A model generated the notes under the pieces. That model was not told where the DNA came from. It did not search any database and was given only the letters and a program-made list of their open reading frames with translations. Position numbers and translations under genes: made by a program. Shown here piece by piece: positions 32,658 through 57,152 of a DNA stretch of 64,000 nucleotides; position 1 is the first letter of the stretch; the number at the start of each line of letters is the position of its first letter. Source of the DNA: Closterium sp. NIES-65 (taxonomy: Eukaryota > Streptophyta > Zygnematophyceae > Desmidiales > Closteriaceae); NCBI GenBank assembly GCA_948144175.1, contig CANXME010000105.1:1632001-1696000 (forward strand). The letters run 5' to 3'.

Positions 32658-33033
32658 TGTTAGTAGAGCTACACTGTGAGATCCCCGATCGATCCTAGGG
32701 GGGGTTACAGGCGCGTTTTCCTGGGGTTTATGGGCGCACTGACCCGCTGCTGAAACAAGCCCTTTTATCCCAATGGTCTAGTGGTTGGGATTCTGACATG
32801 GTATCAGAGCGGTCTCGGGTTCGAATCCCGGTGTATGCATATGTTGGCTGTTGCCACTTTGCTCAGTCCTGGGCCTCCCAGTGTGGGGGGGTGTTAGTAG
32901 AGCTACAGTGTGAGATCCCCGATCGATCCTAGGGGGGGTTACAGGCGCGTTTGCCTGGGGGGTTATGGGCGCACTGACCCGCTACTGAAACAAGCCATTT
33001 TATCCCAATGGTCTAGTGGTTGGGATTCTGACA
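32658..33033 (+). mobile_element. TRIM (miniature LTR retrotransposon)
   Basis: Two LTR copies, 32658-32798 (141 bp) and 32892-33033 (142 bp), about 96% identical, both TGTTAGTAGAGC to GATTCTGACA. They enclose 93 bp with no coding capacity. The interior starts with TGGTATCAGAGC, the canonical primer site for initiator tRNA-Met, and ends with the polypurine run TGTGGGGGGG. AGGTC is duplicated at 32653-32657 and 33034-33038. Size and structure fit the plant TRIM class exactly. It lies directly upstream of the decayed MYND gene. Confidence 0.95.
32765..32842 (+). other. tRNA-like fold across TRIM LTR-primer-site junction
   Basis: The LTR end contains TGGTCTAGTGG (A-box-like). TCTGA of the LTR end pairs with TCAGA of the primer site around a 7-base loop CATGGTA. 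Then comes GGTTCGAATCC, a perfect B-box match, inside a T-arm-like stem (TCGGG/CCCGG). The D-arm, anticodon-arm and T-arm geometry is recognisable; an acceptor stem is not, and position 33 is not T. So this is tRNA-like and not a functional tRNA gene. Confidence 0.6.
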
Positions 33034-34968
33034 AGGTCCATTTCATGGTTCTTGGCCAGGTTGTTTACCTCTCGCCTGATTCAACCGTAGAACAAGCGAA
33101 GCTCAATTCGACTTCAATTATCAAGGTGCTTCCCGTGAAAGCTGTGCATATAGACGGACTGGATAAGGTCAAGGCTAAAGCTAAACAGGATGTGATTGGA
33201 CCTGCAGCTGCTCCTAGTGTTGTTACCACCGTTTCGCCTGTTGCTGTTGTGGTTCCTGCAGCTGCTCCTGCTGTTCCTCCTCCCACATTTCCTACTCCAG
33301 TTGCAGCACCTGCAGCTCCTGCGCTTCGTGATGCGGCTGCTCCTCTTGCTGCTGCTATCACCAAGCTCTATTGACTGCAGCAAACGGAATCACAACGTTT
33401 CTAGAATCGGGGAAGAGGATGAGAACGGGCAGATGGAAAGAGAAGAAGGCGGTAGGGGGTTAGGAAAGGCTCAGGCGTCAGTGCCTACTGTCGCTTCGAT
33501 CAACTCTGTGGATTCTGAACCTTCTCTCGCTTCATTGGCATCTTTGATCCATGTGGATTGTATGACTGACACGACCAGGGTTGATGACGAGCGAGTGGCT
33601 CTGAAGACAGTAGGGAGGAGTCTCGTTTGATGGAGAGACTAGAGAAGCTCCAATTTCCAAGCGATTGCGAAGGACTGGTTCAGGAAGAGGAGCAAACATT
33701 AGTGGATGGAGCATAGGGAATGGAGGATTATGGAGCACGAGAGACGTTTCGACTTCTGTCTCGAGCGGACATGGTTCATTACTTGGACGTGAGAGGTGGC
33801 TGGGATCTGAAGGCATGCGAGTGCTGCTTCGACCGGGCAGTGAGCAGCCGCGCACAGTGCGCTCTCGACATGGCCGACCTTAGTAGCTTTCGCCGTGAAA
33901 TGAAGAACTCGCTTTCTGATTACGTCCCTGCTCATCCACATCCCCGTGCATCCTGGTCCGAGCTCAAGTGGGAGATGAGGTATCCAGTGCGGGAGTCTGA
34001 ACGCCTGCAGGGGATGGCAGCGGTGGAGGAGCTGAAGAGGAAGGCAGCATTCGCGCCTTTACAATGTGCAGAAGCAATGATTCTCGAGTGGATGGCTGAG
34101 CCTCGTGTGGGTGTGCTCATGGACCTGGGGAGGTTGAGATCCTACCTCCCTGCCATTCTTCTGACTCGCGATTGTGATGCACCTGCCCCTGCTCCTGCTG
34201 CTTCCAGTCCTCCTTCTCTTTCTCTAGCTGAACCTGCAGTTGCTTCTGCAATGTGGTCCTGCTGCTGGCGCTGCAACAAATGCTGGGCCAGATACCGCCG
34301 TGCGATCAGCTTTGGTGCCTTCCTCGTGCTTGTAGCGAGCTCCCCATGCATTGTGACTCTATGGAAGGCTCAGAAGGAGCTCTCTGGTACAAACTATCCG
34401 CGCATGGCAATCGTACTGGGTGTCACTCGTCAAGAACAGCTGGACTGCTTGGCTTCCATGCTAGTGCAGGTGCTGGGGGTGAAGGAGAGTGCTGAACTGA
34501 AGGAAGGGTTTGGGTTCTTTGTGTAGCATGTGCTGTCAGGCGGGCTGGAGAAGGCGCATGCGAAGAGGAAGGAGGGAGCTGAAGGAAATACTTTTCAGAA
34601 GACGCAAAATAGGGAAATTGAGAAGAGGGGAGTAGGTGATGGCGGAAAGGGTACTGCAGGGGAGAAGAAAGGTGGCAGGGATGGGAAGGATGGGGATTGG
34701 AAGAAGCATTTGAAGGGGCGTGTGTGGGACAGGTATGTGGATGGCATGGCTTGGATTTTGGAGCGTGGAGGAGCGGAATGGAGGCAGTTTGGGTGCATCC
34801 ACTGCCAGATGGGCGGCGGCAGCGGTGGTGGCAGCGGTGGTGGCAGCGGCAGTATTGATGGGCTTGGCTGCCGGGGCAACAAGGAAGGCAGGAATATTCC
34901 CAAGGGCATGTATGTGAGTGGCGTGGGTGCCACTGACTTCGCCTTTACAGTCGCCACGTTGTTATCTA
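33034..34968 (+). pseudogene. MYND-finger protein gene, 5' part, decayed
   Basis: One reading phase carries most coding signal: HFMVLGQVVYLSPDSTVEQA and an Ala/Pro/Val-rich stretch to 33374, then METs from 33630 (MERLEKLQFPSDCEG), 33720 (MEDYGARETFRLLSRADMVH) and 34530 on to the B1 insertion at 34968. It is interrupted by in-phase TAG at 33714-33716 and 34524-34526. Between 33375 and 33630 the coding-like frame is shifted (SIDCSKRNHNVSRIGEEDEN), so either two compensating indels or an intron is present. The frame is open across the ancestral B1 target: ...LLS-K-VESCLEAQV when one ATCTA copy is removed. The function of this part is unknown; it is Cys-rich near 33805-33850 (KACECCFDRA). Confidence 0.6.
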
Positions 34969-44603: not shown

Positions 44604-45877
44604 TTGCTGTGTGGTGGAGAGGAGTGGAGAAGAGTGATGACTAGGTTTACCACAGAGTAATAGGGTAGGTGCAAGCAGGGCTGATTTTATCAGGGTAATT
44701 ACCCTGATTTCAGGATGATTACGGGCTTCTCACATGGTGGTCCCTGAAATTTCAGAATTTATGACTTGTGAACACTGATCCATTCAGAATAGTGCTTTAG
44801 CGAACCCTGAAATATTGTATCTAGGCTCGTGTTCTTACTGACTCTGTCAATGTAGAGTACGCGTTCTGTGGACTCTGAAATTTCCTTCCGATAACCCCGC
44901 CTTCGGATTGGTCGTAGTACTGCAACAGCGTGAGCACCGCGCGGCAACATGTCTGACAGGTGAATACACTCTACGTATGTTAGTGTTACAGAAGTCGAAG
45001 ATGTCGGTCGTATTGTCGCAATTACGTGTGCGTGAAGTTATCAACACATTTTTTGCGTTTCGCACAATGAAGTTGGCGAATTGCGAGTAATCAGCGAATA
45101 GGAAATCTTGGCACATCTTTGATACCGAACTGTTTGGTGGACCGAAACTGCTCGTTTCTTCCCCGCGCTAAAACGTATGGAGAAATACAAATTTTATCGA
45201 AGTAACGGGTAAGAAAGTAAAGCGCACGAGGTGTGCACGAAATGATGTCGCGTTGTGATGGAATCCTGCGGGGTGAAACTTTTGTCCCCGTTAAATACAG
45301 CGCGCGTTACTACATTGATGTTCAGTTCTCGACCCTGAGCAATCAGAGTTAACTACTTTTCAACACTGAGCAATCAGAGTAGCCTATCTGTGGAAAATAT
45401 ACACCCATAATACAGGGGGGGGATTTTCCCGGGAATCAGGGAGGCTTAAAATGAAACGTCAGCCCTGGGTGCAAGGCTTGTGTTTCTGGTGTCAGTGTGA
45501 AACAATCGCTTCCCGCCAGTGAACAATGACCATACATGTGTTTTGGCTTCATCTGCTCGATTGAAGTCAAGATGTGGTTGCTTTCTCTGCTCCTCTTTCC
45601 TACTGCCGTTCTCTGTTCAGGATCTCCACATGTTATGACAACAAGTGGCTGCCAAATATCCCTCAGTCACGACACAAGACTAAGAATAGCACCTGTGCCT
45701 TCAACAAATCTTACTTTATATATATTCAAGTCAGAATTCAATGCTGGCGGAAATTGGCATCTGCAAACATCTAAAGCATCGGGTTTCTGGTTGCGTACAA
45801 TCTGTGTACCCCTAAAATTACCGGTATCTTGCCCCAAGGACCTCCGGTGCTCAGTAGAGAAGCTCGCATGTATCCGA
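44604..45877. other. Gene-poor stretch after the MYND gene
   Basis: Contains a perfect 20-bp palindrome at 44689-44708 (ATCAGGGTAATTACCCTGAT) and a 15-bp repeat CTGAGCAATCAGAGT at about 45334 and 45360. An open frame from 45572 starts MWLLSLLLFPTAVLCS, which resembles a signal peptide, but it runs into the MITE-like element at 45878 and has no other support. Confidence 0.4.
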
Positions 45878-46600: not shown

Positions 46601-47600
46601 AGCGCTAAGGAAAAGATCAATGAGGTGGGGGGCGGAGGGGGGGAGAGGGGGGGGGGGGGGGGTTGGGGGGGAGGGGGGAGGACTGCTGGGTGCGTGTTGA
46701 AAGAATAACGCGCGTCTCAAACTAATGATGAGGGATGAGTGTAGGTGGACAATCATGGGTGAGCCAAGATGGGTGAGCGGGGGGGGGATGGCTGGGTGAG
46801 CGCTGGGAGACCACGTTCGTCCATCATCGTGCGAAAGAAACGATGATGGATGAGTGCAGGGGGGAATCATGGGTGGGCCTTTGGGGAAAGATGAGTGTGG
46901 AGTAGGGAGAATGCTGGGTGATGGCTGAAGATTTATTGGGGGTTAGTGTAGGAATGGTGAGGGATGAGGGCAAGGGGGAGTCATGAGTGGGCTTCTCGGG
47001 GAAAGAAAGGTGAAGGGGGGGGCGAATGGTGGATCTACTAGGGATATGCAGAATGGTGGGTGAGGGTACCGGGAGAGAGGGGTGAGCATAGAAGGGAAAA
47101 AAGGTAATTGCGTGGACAGCATGAGGGGTGAGCGCAGGGGTAATCAAGTGTTTTTTGAGAATTCTCAAAAAACACTCGTTGAGAATTCTCAAATCATAGC
47201 GCGGACGGCATGAGGGGTGAGCGCAAGGGTAATCAGGAGCGTACGTGCCAGGGCAGGCGAGTGGAGGGGTTAGCGGCGGGGAAATGTGGGGTGGGTGCAG
47301 GGGAGAAAGGGGTCAGCGTAGGGGGAATGAGGTGAGAGCATGGAGGGGCATGAGGGGTAAGTATATGGGGAATGACGGGCTTAGGGAAAGGGGGAATGGT
47401 TCGTGAGGGCACAGGGAGAGAGGGTCCTGCATAGGGGGGTTCGAGGAATGAGTGCGGATGCTGTGAGGTGTGAATGCAAGGGCATTCAGGAATGAACGTG
47501 CAAGGGCAGGTGGAATGAGGGGTGAGTGGGGGGAAGGGGAATGAGTGGAAAGGGCCGGGAGAGGGGTGAATGTCAGGTGGGCGATGTCAATCGTCCTGGT
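46600..47600. repeat. G-rich strand-biased region of diverged repeats
   Basis: The plus strand is strongly purine-rich, with a G run interrupted by few A/T at 46627-46680. Motifs such as GATGAGTGCAGGGGG-AATCATGGGTGGGC recur near 46735, 46848 and 46958, suggesting a decayed ~110-bp tandem repeat. Pro/Ser-rich minus-strand frames are composition artefacts. Confidence 0.6.
47110..47235. repeat. Palindrome locus P1: 37-bp direct repeat around palindromes
   Basis: Copies 47110-47146 and 47199-47235 (37 bp each, three mismatches) flank a perfect 30-bp palindrome at 47147-47176 with core TTTTGAGAATTCTCAAAA and a second 14-bp palindrome TTGAGAATTCTCAA at 47179-47192. Confidence 0.85.
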
Positions 47601-47631
47601 TTCAGTTTCCACGTTTTTTCATGTCCCTAGG

Positions 47632-47775
47632 TCCCTTTGTGTGAGTATCCGAAGTTTTTCTACTGTATCGGATTGGTGTGTACGCACTCCATTTTTTAGG
47701 CGCCTAAAAAATAGACTCCCTTTGTGTGTATATCCGAAGTTCCTCTACTGTATCAGATTGGTGTGTGCGCACTCC
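47632..47775. repeat. Palindrome locus P2: 59-bp direct repeat around palindrome
   Basis: Copies 47632-47690 and 47717-47775 (59 bp each, about 90% identical) flank the perfect 22-bp palindrome ATTTTTTAGGCGCCTAAAAAAT-type at 47691-47712 plus four bases. Confidence 0.87.
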
Positions 47776-48049
47776 AGAAATGTGCCTTCCTCTAGAAGTG
47801 GCAGCAAGTGGATTCCCTCATCCATCTTTGTTGGGGATACTGTGGGTACCACCAGGCAAACTCCAGCAAAATAGTTAACATGCCTTCAATCTCACAGTGA
47901 AAATCCATAGAATTCCTGCTTTTCAGAGTGCAGTTCGGATCTTCTTTGCCCTGGCATGGAGGTTCCTGATACAGAGACATCAAGTACGATGCCCAATATC
48001 CAACCAGAGCATTTGCACGCAAGAAACAGGGGGGTGAATAAGGGAAGGG

Positions 48050-48740
48050 TTGGTGGTGGCACCTCAAGAGCGAGGGAAGAGAGTAAGCTGAGGACTTTGG
48101 GTGGCCCCACATTGCCCCCAGCAACGAAAAGGAGTGAGACTACATGGATAGGCAAAAGGGTTGCACAGCACATGGGGAGGCTTGGAGGCACCTCAAGAGC
48201 AGGGAGATGGAAGAAGCTGAGAAGGTTGGGTGGCGCCACATTGCTCCCAGCAATGCACTCCGAAATGCATTTAGCAGGATGTGAGGAGGTGCTGCTGCTG
48301 CTGCTGCTTAGGGCCTGTGGGAGGAGGTGAGGGGAGCATAAGATGCAGGGGGAGTGGAAGAAGCTGAGAAGGTTGGGTGGCAGCACATTGCCCCCAGCAA
48401 TTCGGAGTTACGGTATCCCTGAACCTTGCTCAGGGAAGGGAGCGAGACTGCAAGGGCGACTTTTGAGGCGCCTCAAAGGATGGGGACACCTCAAGAGCAG
48501 GGGGAAAGACGAAGCTGAAAAGGTTGGGTGGCGCCACAATGCTCCCAGCAATGCGAAGTTACGGTATCCGTGAACCATTCACAGGGAAGGGAGCGATACT
48601 GGTACCATTTTTGAGTCGACTCAAAAGTAGACGAAGCTGAAATGGTTGTTTGGCGCCACATTGCTCCCAGCAATGCGAATTTACGGTATCCCTGAACCTT
48701 TCCCAGGGAAGGAAGTGAGACTGCAAGTTGAGGCATGTTG
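48050..48740. repeat. Five diverged ~105-150-bp units with palindromes P3 and P4 at junctions
   Basis: The block GGTTGGGTGGCGCCACATTG followed by CTCCCAGCAATGC recurs near 48094, 48221, 48370, 48521 and 48640. The last three units also share GTTACGGTATCC, CAGGGAAGGGAGCGA and GACTG. Palindromes lie exactly at two unit junctions: TTTGAGGCGCCTCAAA (48462-48477) and TTTTGAGTCGACTCAAAA (48609-48626). Confidence 0.8.
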
Positions 48741-48960
48741 ACTTGCAGTTGCTGCTTTAGTGCACGTGGGAGGAGAAGGTGAGGGAAGCATAGAATAAGC
48801 AGAGGAGATGTGGAGCAAAAATTAACAGTACAGCTGCCCTGGGCAGCAATGCACTTAGTAGGGCTACTTTAGCAGTTGCTGCTTAGTGCATATGAGAGAT
48901 CAAGGTGAGGGTAGCATAAAACAAGGGGAGAGGAACAGCAAAAACACATGTCAAAACATG
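48741..48960. repeat. Partial duplication of AGTTGCTGCTT module
   Basis: A module AGTTGCTGCTTTAGTGCA followed by GTGAGGGAAGCATAGAA occurs at about 48745 and, altered, at about 48876. A third relative, with CTGCTGCTTAGGGCC, is near 48296. It is part of the mosaic of short duplications in this region. Confidence 0.5.
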
Positions 48961-48975
48961 TACAGAGTTTTTCCA

Positions 48976-49046
48976 TGCGCATCCGGGGAATCGAACCCCG
49001 GTCAGTACCGTGGGAGGGTACTATGACACCACTACACTAGATGCGC
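48976..49046 (-). tRNA. tRNA-Gly(CCC)
   Basis: Minus-strand cloverleaf of 71 nt. Acceptor stem GCGCATC pairs with GATGCGC plus discriminator A. The anticodon stem GTACC/GGTAC holds loop CTCCCAC with anticodon CCC and T at position 33. The T-arm CCGGGGTTCGATTCCCCGG contains the B-box GGTTCGATTCC; the A-box-like part is TAGTGTAGTGG. Sequence and length match plant tRNA-Gly(CCC). The first T-run downstream on the minus strand (TTTT at about 48953-48956) could end transcription. It is the only conventional RNA gene seen. Confidence 0.95.
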
Positions 49047-49527
49047 ATATCATATATGCGCATACCATGCATTCCAGCGTTTCTCACCAACCCTGAACTG
49101 AACCATGTCCTCTCCTAATTTCCTCTCCAACCCTCTTTTCCTCGTAGCAGAGGTGGGGTTAGAGAGGAAATTTTGTTGAATCAAGAATTGAAGTGGTTGC
49201 GTTAGGAAGCACCACGCCCTGAAGAGTGGGGGGCGGGGGAAGCAGGAGAGGGGGGGGTTGTTGGAGAGGAGGGGGAGAAGGCGAGCGGAGGAGGGATTGG
49301 GAAGAAAGGATAGGAAGCAAGCAGAAGAAGGGTTGGGGAGTAGAGATTCGAGGGAGAGGGGATCAGGCAGGAGGAGCAAATGGACGGAGATTGACAACTG
49401 TAGGAAAGAAGCTTCACTGGATAGCAGGTGGCAGGAGGAAGAGAAAAGATCTAGTGGGGAGTGGTTGAGAGTAGGGAAGGAGGGGAAGAGCAAAAGGATG
49501 CACCTGATTGTTTGACTGTGTGTGGTT
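49047..49527. other. Stretch without a recognised gene
   Basis: Purine-rich on the plus strand from 49220 to 49500. Open frames on either strand are Ser/Pro or Arg/Gly-rich and match nothing known. No repeat structure beyond strand bias. Confidence 0.4.
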
Positions 49528-49686
49528 GGAACATGCATGGTGGCCTCGTGCCAGTAGGTTTGGGTGATGGGGCGGATTGGGTGACTTTTGCGTCGACTCA
49601 GAAGTCACCTCTTTTGGGTCGACTCAAAGGAACCTGCATGGTCGCCTGGTGCCACGAGGTTAGGGTGATGGGGCCGACTGAGTGAC
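49528..49686. repeat. Palindrome locus P5/P6: 58-bp direct repeat around two palindromes
   Basis: Copies 49528-49585 and 49629-49686 (58 bp each, about 84% identical) flank two GTCGAC-centred palindromes: a 28-bp one at 49581-49608 with two mismatched pairs (arms GTGACTTTTG) and a 16-bp one at 49613-49628 with one mismatched pair. Confidence 0.82.
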
Positions 49687-49779
49687 GTGGCTCAGAGTGC
49701 CTTCTTTGAGACTTGTCAAAAATAGCTCAGATTGGCGTTGACTGGAATCATATCAGCACACTCACATGGTGCGGTGCCA

Positions 49780-50130
49780 TGCTAGCAACACCTGCTTCTA
49801 CTGCCCCTAAGTATTTGCTGCCATGCATTGACCCATGGCCTCTAAGTGGGGCTCAATTGCAGCCATGCTAGCAACACCTACTTCTACCGCCCCTGCAGCC
49901 CTCATGCCATGTGAACAGGTGAGCTTGTGAGCATGTGAGCACGTGAGTATGTGAGTATGTGAGTATGAGAGCATGTGAGCATGTGAGAATGTGAGTATGT
50001 GAGCATGTGAGTAAGTGAGCATGTGAGCATCTGTCTGTGCCATCACAATGCCATACATACATGGTGCAGTGCCATGACTGCAACAACTGCTTCTACCTAC
50101 CGCCCCGGCAGTGCCATGGGAACAGGGTGT
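49780..50130. repeat. Duplicated CATGCTAGCAACACC module and 10-bp GTGAGCATGT array
   Basis: The module CCATGCTAGCAACACCTGCTTCTACTGCCCCT occurs at about 49787 and 49864, with a looser copy at about 50070. Between them, 49917-50034 is a tandem array of about 12 copies of a GTGAGCATGT-like decamer. No gene. Confidence 0.7.
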
Positions 50131-50399
50131 ACGCTATGAACCGCTTGTGATCTACTGATTAAATGTGCTAGGCTTACCTACACATGTTCTCGCCTTGTAC
50201 TCAGTGAGTTTAGTACTTAGATTGGTCATCACTGGTCGGTCAAACCGAACTTGGTGCTTTCTATCCGTTTTTCTTTTCTAAGTGCCATGCCATGACTGTA
50301 ACATGTGGTGCTTTCTATCCGTTTTTCTTTTCTATACCTACCACCCCTGCAGTGCCATGTGAGCATGCGGGCATCGCGTGCAATACAATGCAGTGCAAT

Positions 50400-50473
50400 A
50401 CTCACATGACAGCAGCATGTGACGTGTTTGGAGTCGACTCAAAACACCACACTCACATGACAGCAGTATGTGA
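50400..50473. repeat. Palindrome locus P7: 23-bp direct repeat around palindrome
   Basis: Copies 50400-50422 and 50451-50473 (one mismatch) flank a 24-bp palindrome at 50424-50447 (GTGTTTGGAG-TCGA-CTCAAAACAC, one mismatched pair). Confidence 0.82.
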
Positions 50474-50569
50474 GGGAGGGACATGCAGGAGATACTGCGC
50501 ATGTGAGCACACACAGTGCTATACTCACATCATGTCAAGCAACAGTGCCATGGCAGCACACTCACATGG

Positions 50570-50840
50570 TGTAGAGCCATGGCAGCAACGGCTACTTCCA
50601 CTCCACGGCCCCTGCAGCCCTGGTGTCATGGCATTCTATCCAGCTTTTGTATTGTGCAAGTGAGCATCATGGAAAATACAGTGCCACACTCACATGATGT
50701 AAAGCAATGGCAGCAACAGCTGCTTTCACTGCCCCTGCAGCCCTCATGTCATGGCATTCTATCCAGCTCTTGTATTGTGCAAGTAAGCATCATACAAAAT
50801 ACAGTGCAGCTGCTTCCACTGCCCCTGCGGCCCCCCAACA
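50570..50840. repeat. ~125-bp tandem duplication (CTGCCCCTGCAGCCCT module)
   Basis: A module from CCATGGCAGCAACGGCT through CATGGCATTCTATCCAGC, TTGTATTGTGCAAGTGAGC and AAAATACAGTGC occurs at 50578-50690 and again at 50706-50806, with a partial third copy after it. Open frames that cross it are repeat artefacts. Confidence 0.75.
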
Positions 50841-50954
50841 AATGACCCATCGCTCCCTGCCATGCACATGCACATGCACACATGCATATGTACAAGCACA
50901 TGCAGATGAAGAGAAAGAAATGTCTCCTGAGAGCACGTGCCAGTCGAACAAAAA

Positions 50955-51740
50955 TCAATGCTCAGGGTATGTGGCATATGCTCAAGGTATGTGGCATATG
51001 CTCAAGGTATGTGGCATATGCTCAAGGTATGTGGCATATGCTCAAGGTATGTGGCATATGCTCAGGGTATGTGGCATATGCTCAGGGTATGTGGCATATG
51101 CTCAGGGTATGTGGCATATGCTCAAGGTATGTGGCACATGCTCAAGGTATGTGGCATATGCTCAAGGTATGTGGCATATGCTCAAGGTATGTGGCATATG
51201 CTCTGGGTATGTGGCATATCCTCAGGGTATGTGGCATATGCTCAGGGTATGTGGCATATGCTCAAGGTATGTGGCATATGCTCAAGGTATGTGGCATATG
51301 CTCAAGGTATGTGGCATATGCTCAGGGTATGTGGCATATGGTCAGGGTATGTGGCATATGCTCAGGGTATGTGGCATATGCTCAGGGTATGTGGCATATG
51401 CTCAGGGTATGTGGCATATGGTCAGGGTATGTGGCATATGGTCAGGTGGCATATGCTCAGGGTATGTGGCATATGCTCAGGGTATGTGGCATATGCTCAG
51501 GGTATGTGGCATATGGTCAGGGTATGTGGCATATGCTCAGGGTATGTGGCATATGGTCAGGGTATGTGGCATATGCTCAGGGTATGTGGCATATGCTCAG
51601 GGTATGTGGCATATGCTCAGGGTATGTGGCATATGCTCAGGGTATGTGGCATATGTTCAGGGTATGTGGCATATGGTCAAGGTATGTGGCATATGCTCAG
51701 GGTATGTGGCATATGTTCAAGGCATGTAACATATGCTCAC
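50955..51740. repeat. 20-bp minisatellite, ~39 copies
   Basis: A perfect 20-bp period of GGTATGTGGCATATGCTCAG with limited variants (CTCAAGG, CTCAGGG, GGTCAGG). One unit near 51443 is shortened. No variant contains a stop in any forward frame, so all three forward frames stay open for over 300 codons. Because 20 is not a multiple of three, each shows the same 20-residue Met-Trp-His-like repeat. None should be taken as a gene. Confidence 0.93.
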
Positions 51741-51949
51741 GGTCATGGGGTATTTGGGGGGGAGAAACAAACCTCCACACCTTGCTGGAGGAGAAAGCAA
51801 GGCCGCCTGAAAGCACGTGCTGGTCAAAGACAGCCGTGAGCCCCTGCACCAAGAGAAAGAAATGCAGCAGGCATGTCATTGGCTGGAAGGAGGATGGGTT
51901 GGAGTGGGCAGAGGTACAAGGGAAATCGAAAGGGTACAAGGTACCCTCA

Positions 51950-52145
51950 CAGAGGGTAGTGGATGTGGTATGGGCGTTGTGTTGAGGTATCGTATCGTAT
52001 ATTTTTCAAAGAGAGAAAAACAAGTGGTACCCTTCCATTCGCCAATCTCTTTTGAGACATCTCAGAAAAGGAGGTACTGTCACATGTAAGGGTTTTGCTC
52101 ACCGGGGGGAGTGGAGGTGGCATGGGCGTTGAGGTATCCGTCACG
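51950..52145. repeat. Palindrome locus P8: degenerate direct repeat around degenerate palindrome
   Basis: GTGGATGTGGTATGGGCGTTG...GAGGTATC (51959-51992) and GTGGAGGTGGCATGGGCGTTGAGGTATC (52111-52138) flank CTTTTGAGACATCTCAGAAAAG at 52049-52070, a worn copy of the TTTTGAG-N4-CTCAAAA palindrome. This locus is weaker than the others. Confidence 0.55.
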
Positions 52146-52216
52146 CATGGTTGGACGGGCAGCAGTGCTGGAGAACCCGCTTGAGCAAGAAAGAACAAGA
52201 GTAAATAATACCCTAA

Positions 52217-53194
52217 CTAAGAGACTAATGGAAAGGCCTTCCCCCGCACAGGGCGTACCTGTGAAAACGACCAGCCGTCGCGGCGCGGGAGGGGGAGGTG
52301 GCAGCTGGGGGAGGTTCTTGTGCTGCGGTAATAGCTGATGTTGGTGCCGTGTAAACGGGGACCCTGGCAGTGCCACTGTGCTGGTGACCAGGGGAGGTTC
52401 TCGTGCTGCGGTGATGACTGATGTGGGGAATGGGCAAACGGGGACGACGGGGACGATGGCGGTGCTGCAGTGCTGGTAGAGAAAGGCGAGGGGAGTGAGT
52501 GAGAGGAGAGGGAGTGAGGGGAGGAGTGAGGGGAGAGGGAGTGAGGGGAGGAGTGAGGGGAGGAACGAGGGGAAGAGTGAGGGAAGGAGTGTGGGGAGGA
52601 GTGAGGGGAGGAGTGCGGGGGGAGGGAGTGAGGGGAGGGGTGAGGAGAGTGGGAGTGAGGTGAGAGGGAGTGAGGGGAGTGAGATTGAGGGAGGGGCGAG
52701 ATCGAATCGGCGGCTGCTATGGAAGGGTTTGACAAAGTTGAAGCTTCGGAAGGGCGTGAAGCAGACGAGAGCGTGCGAGATGACCCCCGTGCCAGCGCAG
52801 GTTCAGAAACGGCCGAGATTGCTGCTTCTGCGGAATGGACGGCCGAGATGAGCACTGGCGACGGGATGCAGGGAGCGGGCGAGGGCCTCGAGATCGCTGG
52901 TGTGAGTGGCCATGCTGGGAAAGTGCAAAATATATGACTTGGAATGAGATTTGAGAGATGTGGGACGGCAAAGAAAGACCGATAGAAAAGATTTGACTTG
53001 ATGGGTAGGGTTCTGAAAGCATGTGCAGCTGCCAACGCTGCGAATGCACCAGCTGCTGTCAATCCTGCAAAGGATCCTGCTGCTGCTGTTCTTGAGAACG
53101 CGCCTGCTGCTGCACGATGCTTCACGCGCACATGCCGCCGCTGCCGATGCTCTGAACGCGACTGTTTCTGCGATCTGCTAGCTTGCGCGCACAT
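52217..53194 (-). CDS. Uncertain Ser/Pro/His-rich open frame
   Basis: A 325-codon minus-strand frame with an Ala-rich N-terminal part, a Ser/Ala middle and a long Ser-Pro-His repeat (SPHSSPHS-type) produced by the purine repeat at 52494-52720. Nothing is recognised. The other strand gives an equally long Gly/Ser/Glu/Arg repeat. I regard it as probably non-coding and list it because of its length only. Confidence 0.15.
   Translation of the reverse strand: MCAQASRSQKQSRSEHRQRRHVRVKHRAAAGAFSRTAAAGSFAGLTAAGAFAALAAAHAFRTLPIKSNLFYRSFFAVPHLSNLIPSHIFCTFPAWPLTPAISRPSPAPCIPSPVLISAVHSAEAAISAVSEPALARGSSRTLSSASRPSEASTLSNPSIAAADSISPLPQSHSPHSLSPHSHSPHPSPHSLPPHSSPHSSPHSFPHSSPRSSPHSSPHSLSPHSSPHSLSSHSLPSPFSTSTAAPPSSPSSPFAHSPHQSSPQHENLPWSPAQWHCQGPRLHGTNISYYRSTRTSPSCHLPLPRRDGWSFSQVRPVRGKAFPLVS
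52494..52720. repeat. GAGTGAGGGGAG-type purine minisatellite
   Basis: About 18 degenerate copies of GGAGTGAGGGGA (11-14 bp) form an almost pure-purine plus strand. Just upstream, GGGAGGTTCTTGTGCTGCGGT occurs twice (about 52307 and 52393), another short local duplication. Confidence 0.75.
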
Positions 53195-53390
53195 AGATTT
53201 CTTGCTGGTGCGACGAATGATGCTCCGCGCACCTGCGCGCTCATAAATTTCTTGCTGCTGCCGCGAATGATGCTGCGCGCACCTGCGCGTTCGTAAGCTT
53301 CTGGTGCGGACCTGCTGCTGCCACGGATGCTTCTAGCGCGCACCTGCGTGCTCATAAGCTTCTAGCGCGCACCTGCTGCTGCTGCGTCGT
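53170..53390. repeat. ~60-bp tandem repeat, 3-4 copies
   Basis: Units of the type GCGCGCACCTGCGCGCTCATAA followed by TTCTTGCTGCTGCCGCGAATGATGC repeat at about 53190, 53230, 53280 and 53335 with loss of parts. Minus-strand frames across it repeat RAGARSIIRGSS-like residues and are not credible genes. Confidence 0.65.
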
Positions 53391-53735
53391 CCTCGTCCCA
53401 ACAAGGCTTGCCCACATGCACCGGCAGCTCCGCTTAAGCATCTGCCTGTGCGCATGTGCTGCCGTAGGAGTCCTACGTATTAGCGATTTGAGTTTTCAAG
53501 ACAATGCTCAAAATGCCATCTAGAGCTCTCCTTGTCAACAAATGCCGTGGATTACTTCTCCAGCGACAGCCCTTCACATTGAATCCTCTCCCGTTGTCTT
53601 GTTTCGTAACCAGGCTGCTGACAAAGGGAGCAGGCTCAGATATGGTCGTAGGCTTGCACCTCTTGACCTTCTTTCCGAACTTGACAAGGTATAATCAAAA
53701 AAGTCGTCGACCCAACAATGAGCGTCATGGTCTTG

Positions 53736-53891
53736 GAGCGCGTTCCGGAAGAAAGGGAAGAACGATCGCGTATCAGCTAGCTGCTACCTATTGAAGAAGT
53801 GTTTTGAGACGTCTCAAAACACTTCTTCAATCTCGAGCGCGTTCCGGAAGAAAGGGAAGAAAGATCGCGTATCGGCTAGCTGCTACCTATT
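53736..53891. repeat. Palindrome locus P9: 57-bp direct repeat around a perfect 40-bp palindrome
   Basis: Copies 53736-53792 and 53835-53891 (57 bp each, two mismatches) flank a perfect 40-bp palindrome at 53791-53830 whose core is TTTTGAGACGTCTCAAAA with outer arms TTGAAGAAGTG. The repeats are the best preserved of all the loci, so this may be the most recent event. Confidence 0.92.
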
Positions 53892-56883: not shown

Positions 56884-57045
56884 AATGATCCTACCGAGCG
56901 GGCGGTTCGGAAGCTTCGTGCAAAATATGCCGAGTGCCGTTGCTGCGTGCGATTTCGTGCGTGAGGATCTGCTGGGGATGGGAGGGGGTGAAGGCATGTG
57001 TGTGAGAGGCATAAGTGAACCAGCCGAGCCGCTGTGACTCCCATC

Positions 57046-57152
57046 CTCGGCTAGCCGAGTTTTTGTGGCTCTCAGCCTCGGCTAGCCGAGCCTCTGTGGC
57101 TGTCAGTTTCGGCTAGACGAGCCTCTGTGGCTCTCAGCCTCGGCTAGCCGAG
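57046..57152. promoter_or_regulatory. Four 14-bp palindromes at 31-bp spacing upstream of the inhibitor gene
   Basis: CTCGGCTAGCCGAG occurs at 57046, 57077 and 57139, and with two changes at 57108. The spacer is CCTCTGTGGCTCTCAG-like. The array lies 163-269 bp upstream of the start codon of the minus-strand gene. Spacing of about three helical turns puts all sites on one DNA face. A role as transcription-factor sites is an inference; a simple tandem repeat is the alternative. Confidence 0.6.

Follow-up and report, generated by a model that had tools for sequence, protein, structure and literature searches.

Short perfect palindromes between long local direct repeats in the genome of Closterium sp. 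NIES-65

According to the accessible parts of PMC4478555, the GC clusters of yeast mitochondria (GC42) are 42-bp palindromic sequences that are held to be mobile and are flanked by the direct repeats AG or ACT. Target repeats of 8-514 bp accompany IS1549 and IS1634, for which no mechanism had been proposed at the date of the paper (PMC2266710, in excerpt). In mouse and human cells, nearby breaks in opposite strands followed by repair synthesis give rise to tandem duplications (Schimmel 2021, PMC8355091, in excerpt), and the same route has been inferred for plants from natural insertions (Vaughn and Bennetzen 2014, as cited in PMC8355091). Here we describe a family of short palindromes of the form TTTTGAG-N4-CTCAAAA, present in a 64,000-nucleotide stretch of Closterium sp. 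NIES-65 (contig CANXME010000105.1, C105:1632001-1696000; hereafter the window), which is part of a genome assembly of 874,075,685 bases in 2400 contigs. Most palindromes in the sample examined lie between two copies of a local duplicated stretch, and this local direct repeat, with one copy either side of the palindrome, is designated D. That these palindromes are insertions of an element which duplicates its target can be held with high confidence. The finding is real and genome-wide and, as far as our searches reached, undescribed in the open PMC literature; six literal forms of the palindrome gave no match in open PMC papers, and a description in the subscription literature, which lay mostly outside the search, is possible.

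The exact pattern occurs 30,327 times in the 874-Mb genome, whereas the pattern read backwards, which served as control, occurs four times; as the pattern is its own reverse complement, the larger figure counts sites, none of them twice. The window itself holds 11 matches at up to two mismatches, against 0.12 expected and at most two in any of 100 shuffles, and 10 of the 11 fall in 47.1-53.9 kb. The preliminary description of the window had considered that a genome-wide scan might find no excess of the palindrome, an outcome that did not occur. Besides the window, the sequence read for the present analysis takes in 20 stretches of 10 kb each (264 kb in total), and some tests add six loci of 401 bases. 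Eighteen of the 20 stretches were picked around the first-listed pattern matches (contigs C6, C9 and C10) and not at random, and the two chosen as near the window (L158 and L159) hold no palindrome site at up to one mismatch.

Among the genome matches listed, the central four bases are TCGA, ACGT, GCGC or AATT, all of them self-complementary, in 46 of 50. A perfect palindrome necessarily has a self-complementary centre, and only four of the 16 possible centres of this kind are used by the perfect palindromes of the family. Specifically, the 264 kb contain 66 perfect palindromes with arms of at least eight bases; the core is present in 49 of them (centre TCGA in 22, ACGT in 14, GCGC in 10 and AATT in three), and the remaining 17 include several shorter or near-variant copies. 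When up to one core mismatch is allowed, 79 of 88 copies have one of the same four centres. The four subfamilies have the arm core TTTTGAG in common and differ both in the innermost two bases (TC, AC, GC or AA) and in what lies further out. The most complete outer arms that were read are AGGTGAC- (centre TCGA), TATATGGGAGTGAC- (AATT) and CACGTG-N2-TGAAGAAGTG- (ACGT), with almost no outer arm in the GCGC subfamily. At their fullest, the copies read form palindromes about 32-53 bp long, with nothing between the arms. Copies are trimmed to varying lengths, and the left and right arm of one copy may differ in length. In the arm listing, outer arms vary between copies of one subfamily yet mirror each other within a copy, as exemplified by CACGTGAAAGAAGGAGTG (L157) against CACGTGTAGATAGGTTAT (L147; 16 bases beyond the core mirrored, with one mismatch) and by TATATGGGAGTGAC (L162) against TATAATGGAGTGAC (L165). 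Such mirroring within a copy is a sign, not proof, that one arm was copied from the other at insertion. The double palindromes that share one insert (49586-49628 and 47147-47192 of the window) have the same centre, as if the second had been copied from the first in the same event.

The association of the palindromes with duplications was assessed by aligning flank against flank. A score of at least 40 is reached by 78% of 72 sites (up to one mismatch) compared with 23.5% of 400 positions drawn at random from the same stretches, and 18 of the 72 sites pass a strict abutment rule. An anchored test, which admits up to two mismatches and demands a score of at least 20 with D ending no more than 26 nt from the palindrome on both sides, is passed by 63 of 84 palindrome clusters and by one of 317 mismatched pairs, formed by combining left and right flanks of different sites. 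Both ends of D lie within 22 nt of the palindrome at 33 of 78 sites. The same holds for 152 of 2000 random positions, a number that falls to 64 when D is in addition restricted to less than 120 bp; the sites stay at 33 of 78. The flanking duplications, which the preliminary description knew from a single region, thus extend beyond it. Starting from the repeats instead, 37 of 133 local direct repeats with a spacer of 8-90 bp contain a palindrome at up to two mismatches, as do 23 of the 57 with a spacer of 16-50 bp. A 32-base form with the arms GAGTGAC occurs 49 times in the genome, with the centre AATT in 48 of the 49, and eight loci (L160-L167) were picked for it; two pairs of these are the same locus on two contigs, leaving six distinct loci. 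Alignment finds an abutting D at L164 only, while reading by eye gives a D of 25 bp at L162 and of 8 bp at L166, with L160, L161 and L165 ambiguous. The bare 14-base pattern is present in at least 120 viral stretches, and in the 119 matches that could be tested the flank score never exceeds 26 and a self-complementary centre occurs twice, indicating that the pattern alone brings no duplications. The extended palindrome GTGTTTTGAGN4CTCAAAACAC is absent from viral contigs and from prokaryotic genome contigs, and TTTTGAGTCGACTCAAAA has four records in the prokaryotic collection and none in the viral one.

Thirty-four of the 84 clusters are termed clean sites. Their D is 20-111 bp long (median 57.5 bp), to which the 8 bp at L166 may be added. 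Usable empty sites, sought among the loci read, are available at three loci of the 34. At L145:1299, two identical 60-bp copies of D surround a 23-bp insert, and three diverged tandem paralogs at the same locus (76-80% identity) consist of the left flank, one D and the right flank. Two paralogs of L149:4183 (81% and 85%) have one D and no palindrome, and one paralog on L142 (71%) provides the empty site for L146:971. A paralog of L153:1264 spans D but is too repetitive to use, and the spanning matches at L151 and L164/L167 are uninformative as they lie within arrays or on duplicate contigs. Divergence between the copies of D and mismatch between the arms (nine innermost pairs) rise side by side through three bins, from 0.023 and 0.025 (nine sites) to 0.065 and 0.074 (12 sites) and 0.156 and 0.154 (13 sites); over all 34 sites the Spearman coefficient is 0.39 (p 0.024), where the measurable arm mismatch is limited by the admission of sites at up to two core mismatches. 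Because arm mismatch tracks D divergence, it appears that palindrome and D arose together and that the palindromes were born nearly perfect. By the same token, the fully identical copies of D at L145 (60 bp), L146 (23 bp), L164 (32 bp) and L157 (19 bp) point to younger insertions. The paralogous empty sites and the equal ageing of palindrome and D bear out the suggestion of the preliminary description that a small palindromic element inserts and duplicates its target. At the level of coordinates, no presence or absence of a palindrome between alleles was established in the stretches compared. The palindrome at L151:4604-4635 (C9) is self-inverted, and its counterpart on C1759 gave no self-inverted match, perhaps through substitution.

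No motif at the ends of D was evident by eye among 21 sites with a D identity of at least 0.9, the top column being a G in 12 of the 21, five bases before D. Of the 68 junctions at which palindrome and D meet, comparison with a subfamily arm was feasible for 26; the others have a different centre, a full-length arm or one that deviates from the consensus. At these 26, the native bases extend the arm by a mean of 1.81 nt compared with 0.52 nt when D ends are shuffled among sites, and none of 2000 shuffles reached the observed value. Removal of four doubtful junctions (two from an array and two with gapped alignments) leaves 22, at which the arm continues for 1.36 nt against 0.45 nt in the shuffled sets (none of 5000 reaching it), and at least one base of junction homology is seen in 64% of the 22 against 27% after shuffling. 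Collectively, the results support insertion with duplication, a common age of palindrome and D, near-perfect palindromes at birth, a variable D and short junction homology. The splice-site motif GTRAGT is present in 8 of the 34 D against 1.9 expected; as one of four control motifs, GARTGT, is likewise raised (6 against 1.8), no link between D and splice sites is claimed. In several places D and palindrome alternate in short arrays (L145:62-156, L147:1438-1668, L148:1618-1779 and L156:6132-6323, with steps of about 37, 53, 34-72 and 42 bp), suggestive of minisatellites that are seeded by a D-palindrome-D unit.

Within the window, nine palindromes had been listed in the preliminary description as lying between repeats. 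Seven places do have D on both sides, five with abutting copies and two as parts of one array, and the repeat at 52049 is unconvincing. As delimited by flank alignment, the copies of D abut the palindromes at 47147, 47691, 49581, 50424 and 53790, with a left gap of 0-1 nt and a right gap of 0-4 nt. At site A, a D of 40 bp (47107-47146, 90% identity to 47196-47235) encloses an insert at 47147-47195, where a perfect palindrome of 30 bp with the centre AATT (47147-47176) is followed by a second, partial one with the same centre (47179-47192). Site B has a D of 59-60 bp (47632-47691 and 47717-47776, 90% identity) around the insert 47692-47716, with the palindrome TTTTTTAGGCGCCTAAAAAA, of variant core and centre GCGC. 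Sites C1 and C2 are adjacent junctions of one array of diverged copies, with gaps between palindrome and D of 11/15 and 7/2 nt: the 111-bp left D of C1 (48340-48450) is 85% identical to the right copy at 48493-48601 and stands 11 nt from the palindrome (48461-48478, centre GCGC), the right copy overlaps the left copy of C2 (48507-48601), and the C2 palindrome TTTTGAGTCGACTCAAAA (48609-48626) is followed by a right copy of 95 bp (48629-48723, 88% identity to 48507-48601). At site D, the palindromes listed at 49581 and 49613 are both present and belong to one insert rather than to separate loci (49586-49628, centre TCGA in both), between copies of 51-58 bp at 49528-49585 and 49629-49686 (84% identity). 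Here the palindrome at 49581 includes the last five bases of the left copy, GTGAC, in mirrored form, as self-templated copying of a hairpin could give. Site E has a D of 23 bp (50400-50422 and 50451-50473, 96% identity) around the insert 50423-50450, with a palindrome at 50424-50447 (centre TCGA), and site F a D of 54-57 bp (53736-53792 and 53835-53891, 96% identity) around the insert 53793-53834, with a perfect 42-bp palindrome at 53790-53831 (centre ACGT). A tenth palindrome, the decayed CTTTGAGACTTGTCAAAA (49704-49721), which the preliminary description did not list, has a repeat of about 15 bp discerned by eye only (49689-49703 and 49724-49739; anchored score 15). At site G, the decayed palindrome at 52049-52070 (centre ACAT) has a weak 46-bp repeat (78% identity, gaps 57/27) whose anchored score of 10 fails the test. 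Flank scores at the seven D sites are 41-135; six of seven comparison sites in the window score 13-20 and the seventh, 57046, which lies within a 31-bp tandem repeat, scores 26.

By comparison of coordinates, C1780 carries a second copy of 47.0-50.8 kb of the window with 98% identity (3786 against 3801 bases), and the insertions in this part are probably common to both copies. Other repeats lie nearby. Between sites E and G, a 20-bp unit (ATGCTCAGGGTATGTGGCAT) is repeated in tandem 39.5 times at 50958-51743 (94% matches), the units of the 31-bp tandem repeat at 57022-57152 have a palindrome around CTCGGCTAGCCGAG, and a perfect 20-bp palindrome at 44689-44708, ATCAGGGTAATTACCCTGAT, is without flanking repeats. 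A separate family of dispersed repeats, with more than 20 copies among the matches listed, is seen outside the window at L151:5470-5551; its unit is about 82 bp long and encloses a nearly perfect palindrome (CCTGTTCGGTTCGCCTCGAAC..) of about 44 bp. On reading, an 80-bp direct repeat at 32723-33037 (95% identity) proved to belong to a tandem duplication of 235 bp, and its interpretation as a short interspersed nuclear element (SINE) was rejected. The duplication includes a tRNA-like stretch as well as TGGTATCAGAGC, which we take to be a copia-type primer binding site. The window encodes copia-type polyproteins (RVT_2 and integrase domains), a MYND zinc-finger protein and a tRNA-Gly, and its DNA is eukaryotic. 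The same assembly contains a plastid-type RuBisCO large subunit with 91% identity to the spinach sequence, which marks the host as a green plant or alga. The gene for this subunit, rbcL, is found on many contigs (C1848, C2174, C75, C40) and several times on both strands of one contig, implying that the assembly includes repeated or rearranged plastid DNA.

We consider the chances about even that the palindromes represent a very short, non-coding, loop-free nuclear mobile element which is joined into staggered breaks, with fill-in making D; the hairpin and the end joining through which this would happen are credited to the same middling degree. The target would break in staggered fashion, with nicks in opposite strands about 8 to 111 bp apart and no sequence preference that is evident. 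A copy of the element would be joined between the broken ends with the help of a few bases of chance homology, in the probable form of a hairpin or of a short duplex whose ends are trimmed. Fill-in of the overhangs would then duplicate whatever lies between the nicks, leaving it on both sides of the insert. Unequal exchange might later expand some D-palindrome-D units into short arrays. The staggered break, the fill-in, the hairpin form, the joining enzyme and the source of the copies are inferred. A hairpin would explain the perfect palindromes with no loop, the mirrored outer arms and the five mirrored bases of D at 49581. Somewhat more tentatively, a gene-less hairpin of about 32-53 bp that spreads by way of staggered breaks and is perfected by copying from arm to arm may constitute a new mode of DNA mobility.

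Several observations weigh against this reading. Random positions in 46.5-54.2 kb of the window (400 of them) gave a median flank score of 31, an upper quartile of 59 and a 90th percentile of 124; this part is dense with tandem arrays, so that scores from the window are no proof on their own and the case rests on abutment and on the wider tests. In the latter, random positions from the same tandem-repeat-rich stretches pass the anchored score in 49 of 250 cases, and 21 of the 84 clusters fall below the score for D, a few with a short D by eye (e.g. L166) and the remainder unexplained. Thirty-four of the 57 direct repeats with a spacer of 16-50 bp contain no palindrome. The arm consensuses of the junction test were derived from the same data, and its comparable junctions are the 26 of 68. 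The second copy of 47.0-50.8 kb differs by only 15 bases in length, so it offers no insertion-free allele. Copies with one core substitution in a single arm number 1116 and 1189 in the genome, and the mirrored version of that substitution occurs 183 times, where independent decay would give about 44 (1116 x 1189 / 30,327). The excess is weak, and unequal copy ages could inflate it; among the listed mirrored variants, some belong to an unrelated repeat with the centre TTCT. Neither a hairpin molecule nor an enzyme nor ongoing movement was seen. Finally, the core is conserved across four subfamilies, which suggests a requirement for it on the part of some protein; passive capture has no such requirement.

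This last point speaks for the main competing explanation, under which a resident transposable element carries the palindromes along as non-autonomous passengers and its enzyme cuts with a variable stagger, examples being target-primed reverse transcription by an element lacking long terminal repeats (non-LTR) or a Penelope-like element, or a transposase like that of IS1549/IS1634. A core common to four subfamilies and tens of thousands of copies would be in keeping with such passengers, variable long duplications of the required kind exist (PMC2266710, in excerpt), and short homology at both junctions also fits priming on a template. Fixed ends are not seen, however, the arms being cut back to different lengths, and no clear motif emerged by eye at the ends of D (21 sites); we regard this explanation as rather unlikely, though it deserves to be taken seriously. 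An alternative that we judge improbable dispenses with a travelling copy altogether: each break end would gain the same templated 3' tail, made up of outer arm, TTTTGAG and a self-complementary tetranucleotide, and the tails would pair by way of this tetranucleotide and be filled in, so that the palindrome is made anew at every repair event. The restriction to four of the 16 centres among the 49 perfect palindromes, and to the same four in 79 of 88 near copies, would be in keeping with this, as would left and right arms of different length and near-perfection at birth. Set against this are the several separate templates that would be needed, neither template nor enzyme having been identified, and the fact that among the listed cases of D, spacer and D a single-arm insert was not noticed, although no formal count was made.

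The preliminary description had also considered that a palindrome-forming event creates the duplication. As one repair event with paired tails this is possible, whereas a palindrome present beforehand is disfavoured, because the empty sites lack it. It is indeed very improbable that palindromes came first and that cruciform breakage then made the duplications, or that unequal exchange in tandem arrays did so. Some palindromes do lie in arrays (L145, L147, L148, L156) and the window is rich in tandem repeats, but at three loci the empty paralogs lack both the palindrome and the second D, and palindrome and D are equal in age in all three bins. Palindromes are, moreover, a known form of artefact, and hairpin adaptors or chimeric reads might be invoked. 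The copies of D are diverged by up to 23% among the clean sites, the same sites recur on several contigs and the stretch in the window has a second copy, 98% identical and of nearly equal length, all of which makes the likelihood of an artefact of assembly or library practically negligible.

If the reading of a hairpin joined into staggered breaks is true, the family would be a very small nuclear mobile element that requires neither a gene of its own nor a fixed target. A break and its exact overhang would be recorded with each insertion, making the genome a large archive of staggered breaks that are dated by the divergence of D, and the frequency with which opposite-strand nicks become tandem duplications would be directly testable. 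The inserted units would be a seed for minisatellites. The same reading bears on the open question of why some transposons make variable and very long target duplications.

Miniature inverted-repeat transposable elements (MITEs) are short, non-coding inverted-repeat elements with very many copies in plants, and have fixed ends, a fixed and short target duplication and an internal part. The Closterium palindromes are likewise short, non-coding, inverted-repeat and highly copied, but their ends vary, their D varies and nothing lies between the arms: among the 34 clean sites the duplication ranges from 20 to 111 bp, with a further value of 8 bp from L166, and the arms end at different points, which can differ between left and right. 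Nor is either outer end constant among the copies, whereas non-LTR elements and SINEs have a constant 3' end. Insertion by target priming would also leave an endonuclease motif at the first nick, and by eye the 21 sites gave no clear one. IS1549 and IS1634 are bacterial and carry a transposase and terminal inverted repeats. The inserts read here are only tens of base pairs long and contain no DDE transposase gene, a transposase acting from elsewhere not having been searched for. The likeness lies in the long target repeats of variable length, and the 8-514 bp on record (PMC2266710, in excerpt) are a precedent for target duplications of such length, which the preliminary description had matched to no transposon class it knew. 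GC42 clusters resemble the family in being short palindromic elements in repeated copies flanked by direct repeats, but, in the accessible parts of PMC4478555, they are mitochondrial with repeats of AG or ACT, whereas the palindromes described here are nuclear and loop-free with repeats of about 8-111 bp (median 57.5 bp at the clean sites). Dispersed palindromes in a green alga are also known from the organelles of Volvox carteri, where they are thought to be selfish; these belong to organelle genomes, and the available excerpts of PMC2670323 make no mention of long target duplications. As far as we have found, palindrome inserts with long target duplications fit no transposon class. The duplications that arise from staggered breaks come close in that the stretch is present once in the empty site (three loci) and twice after the event, with no fixed length. 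The portions of PMC8355091 available describe no dedicated insert, whereas in Closterium the palindrome family lies between the copies and fills 23 of the 57 direct repeats with a spacer of 16-50 bp. The new feature with respect to the known duplications at staggered breaks is this dedicated palindrome at the junction.

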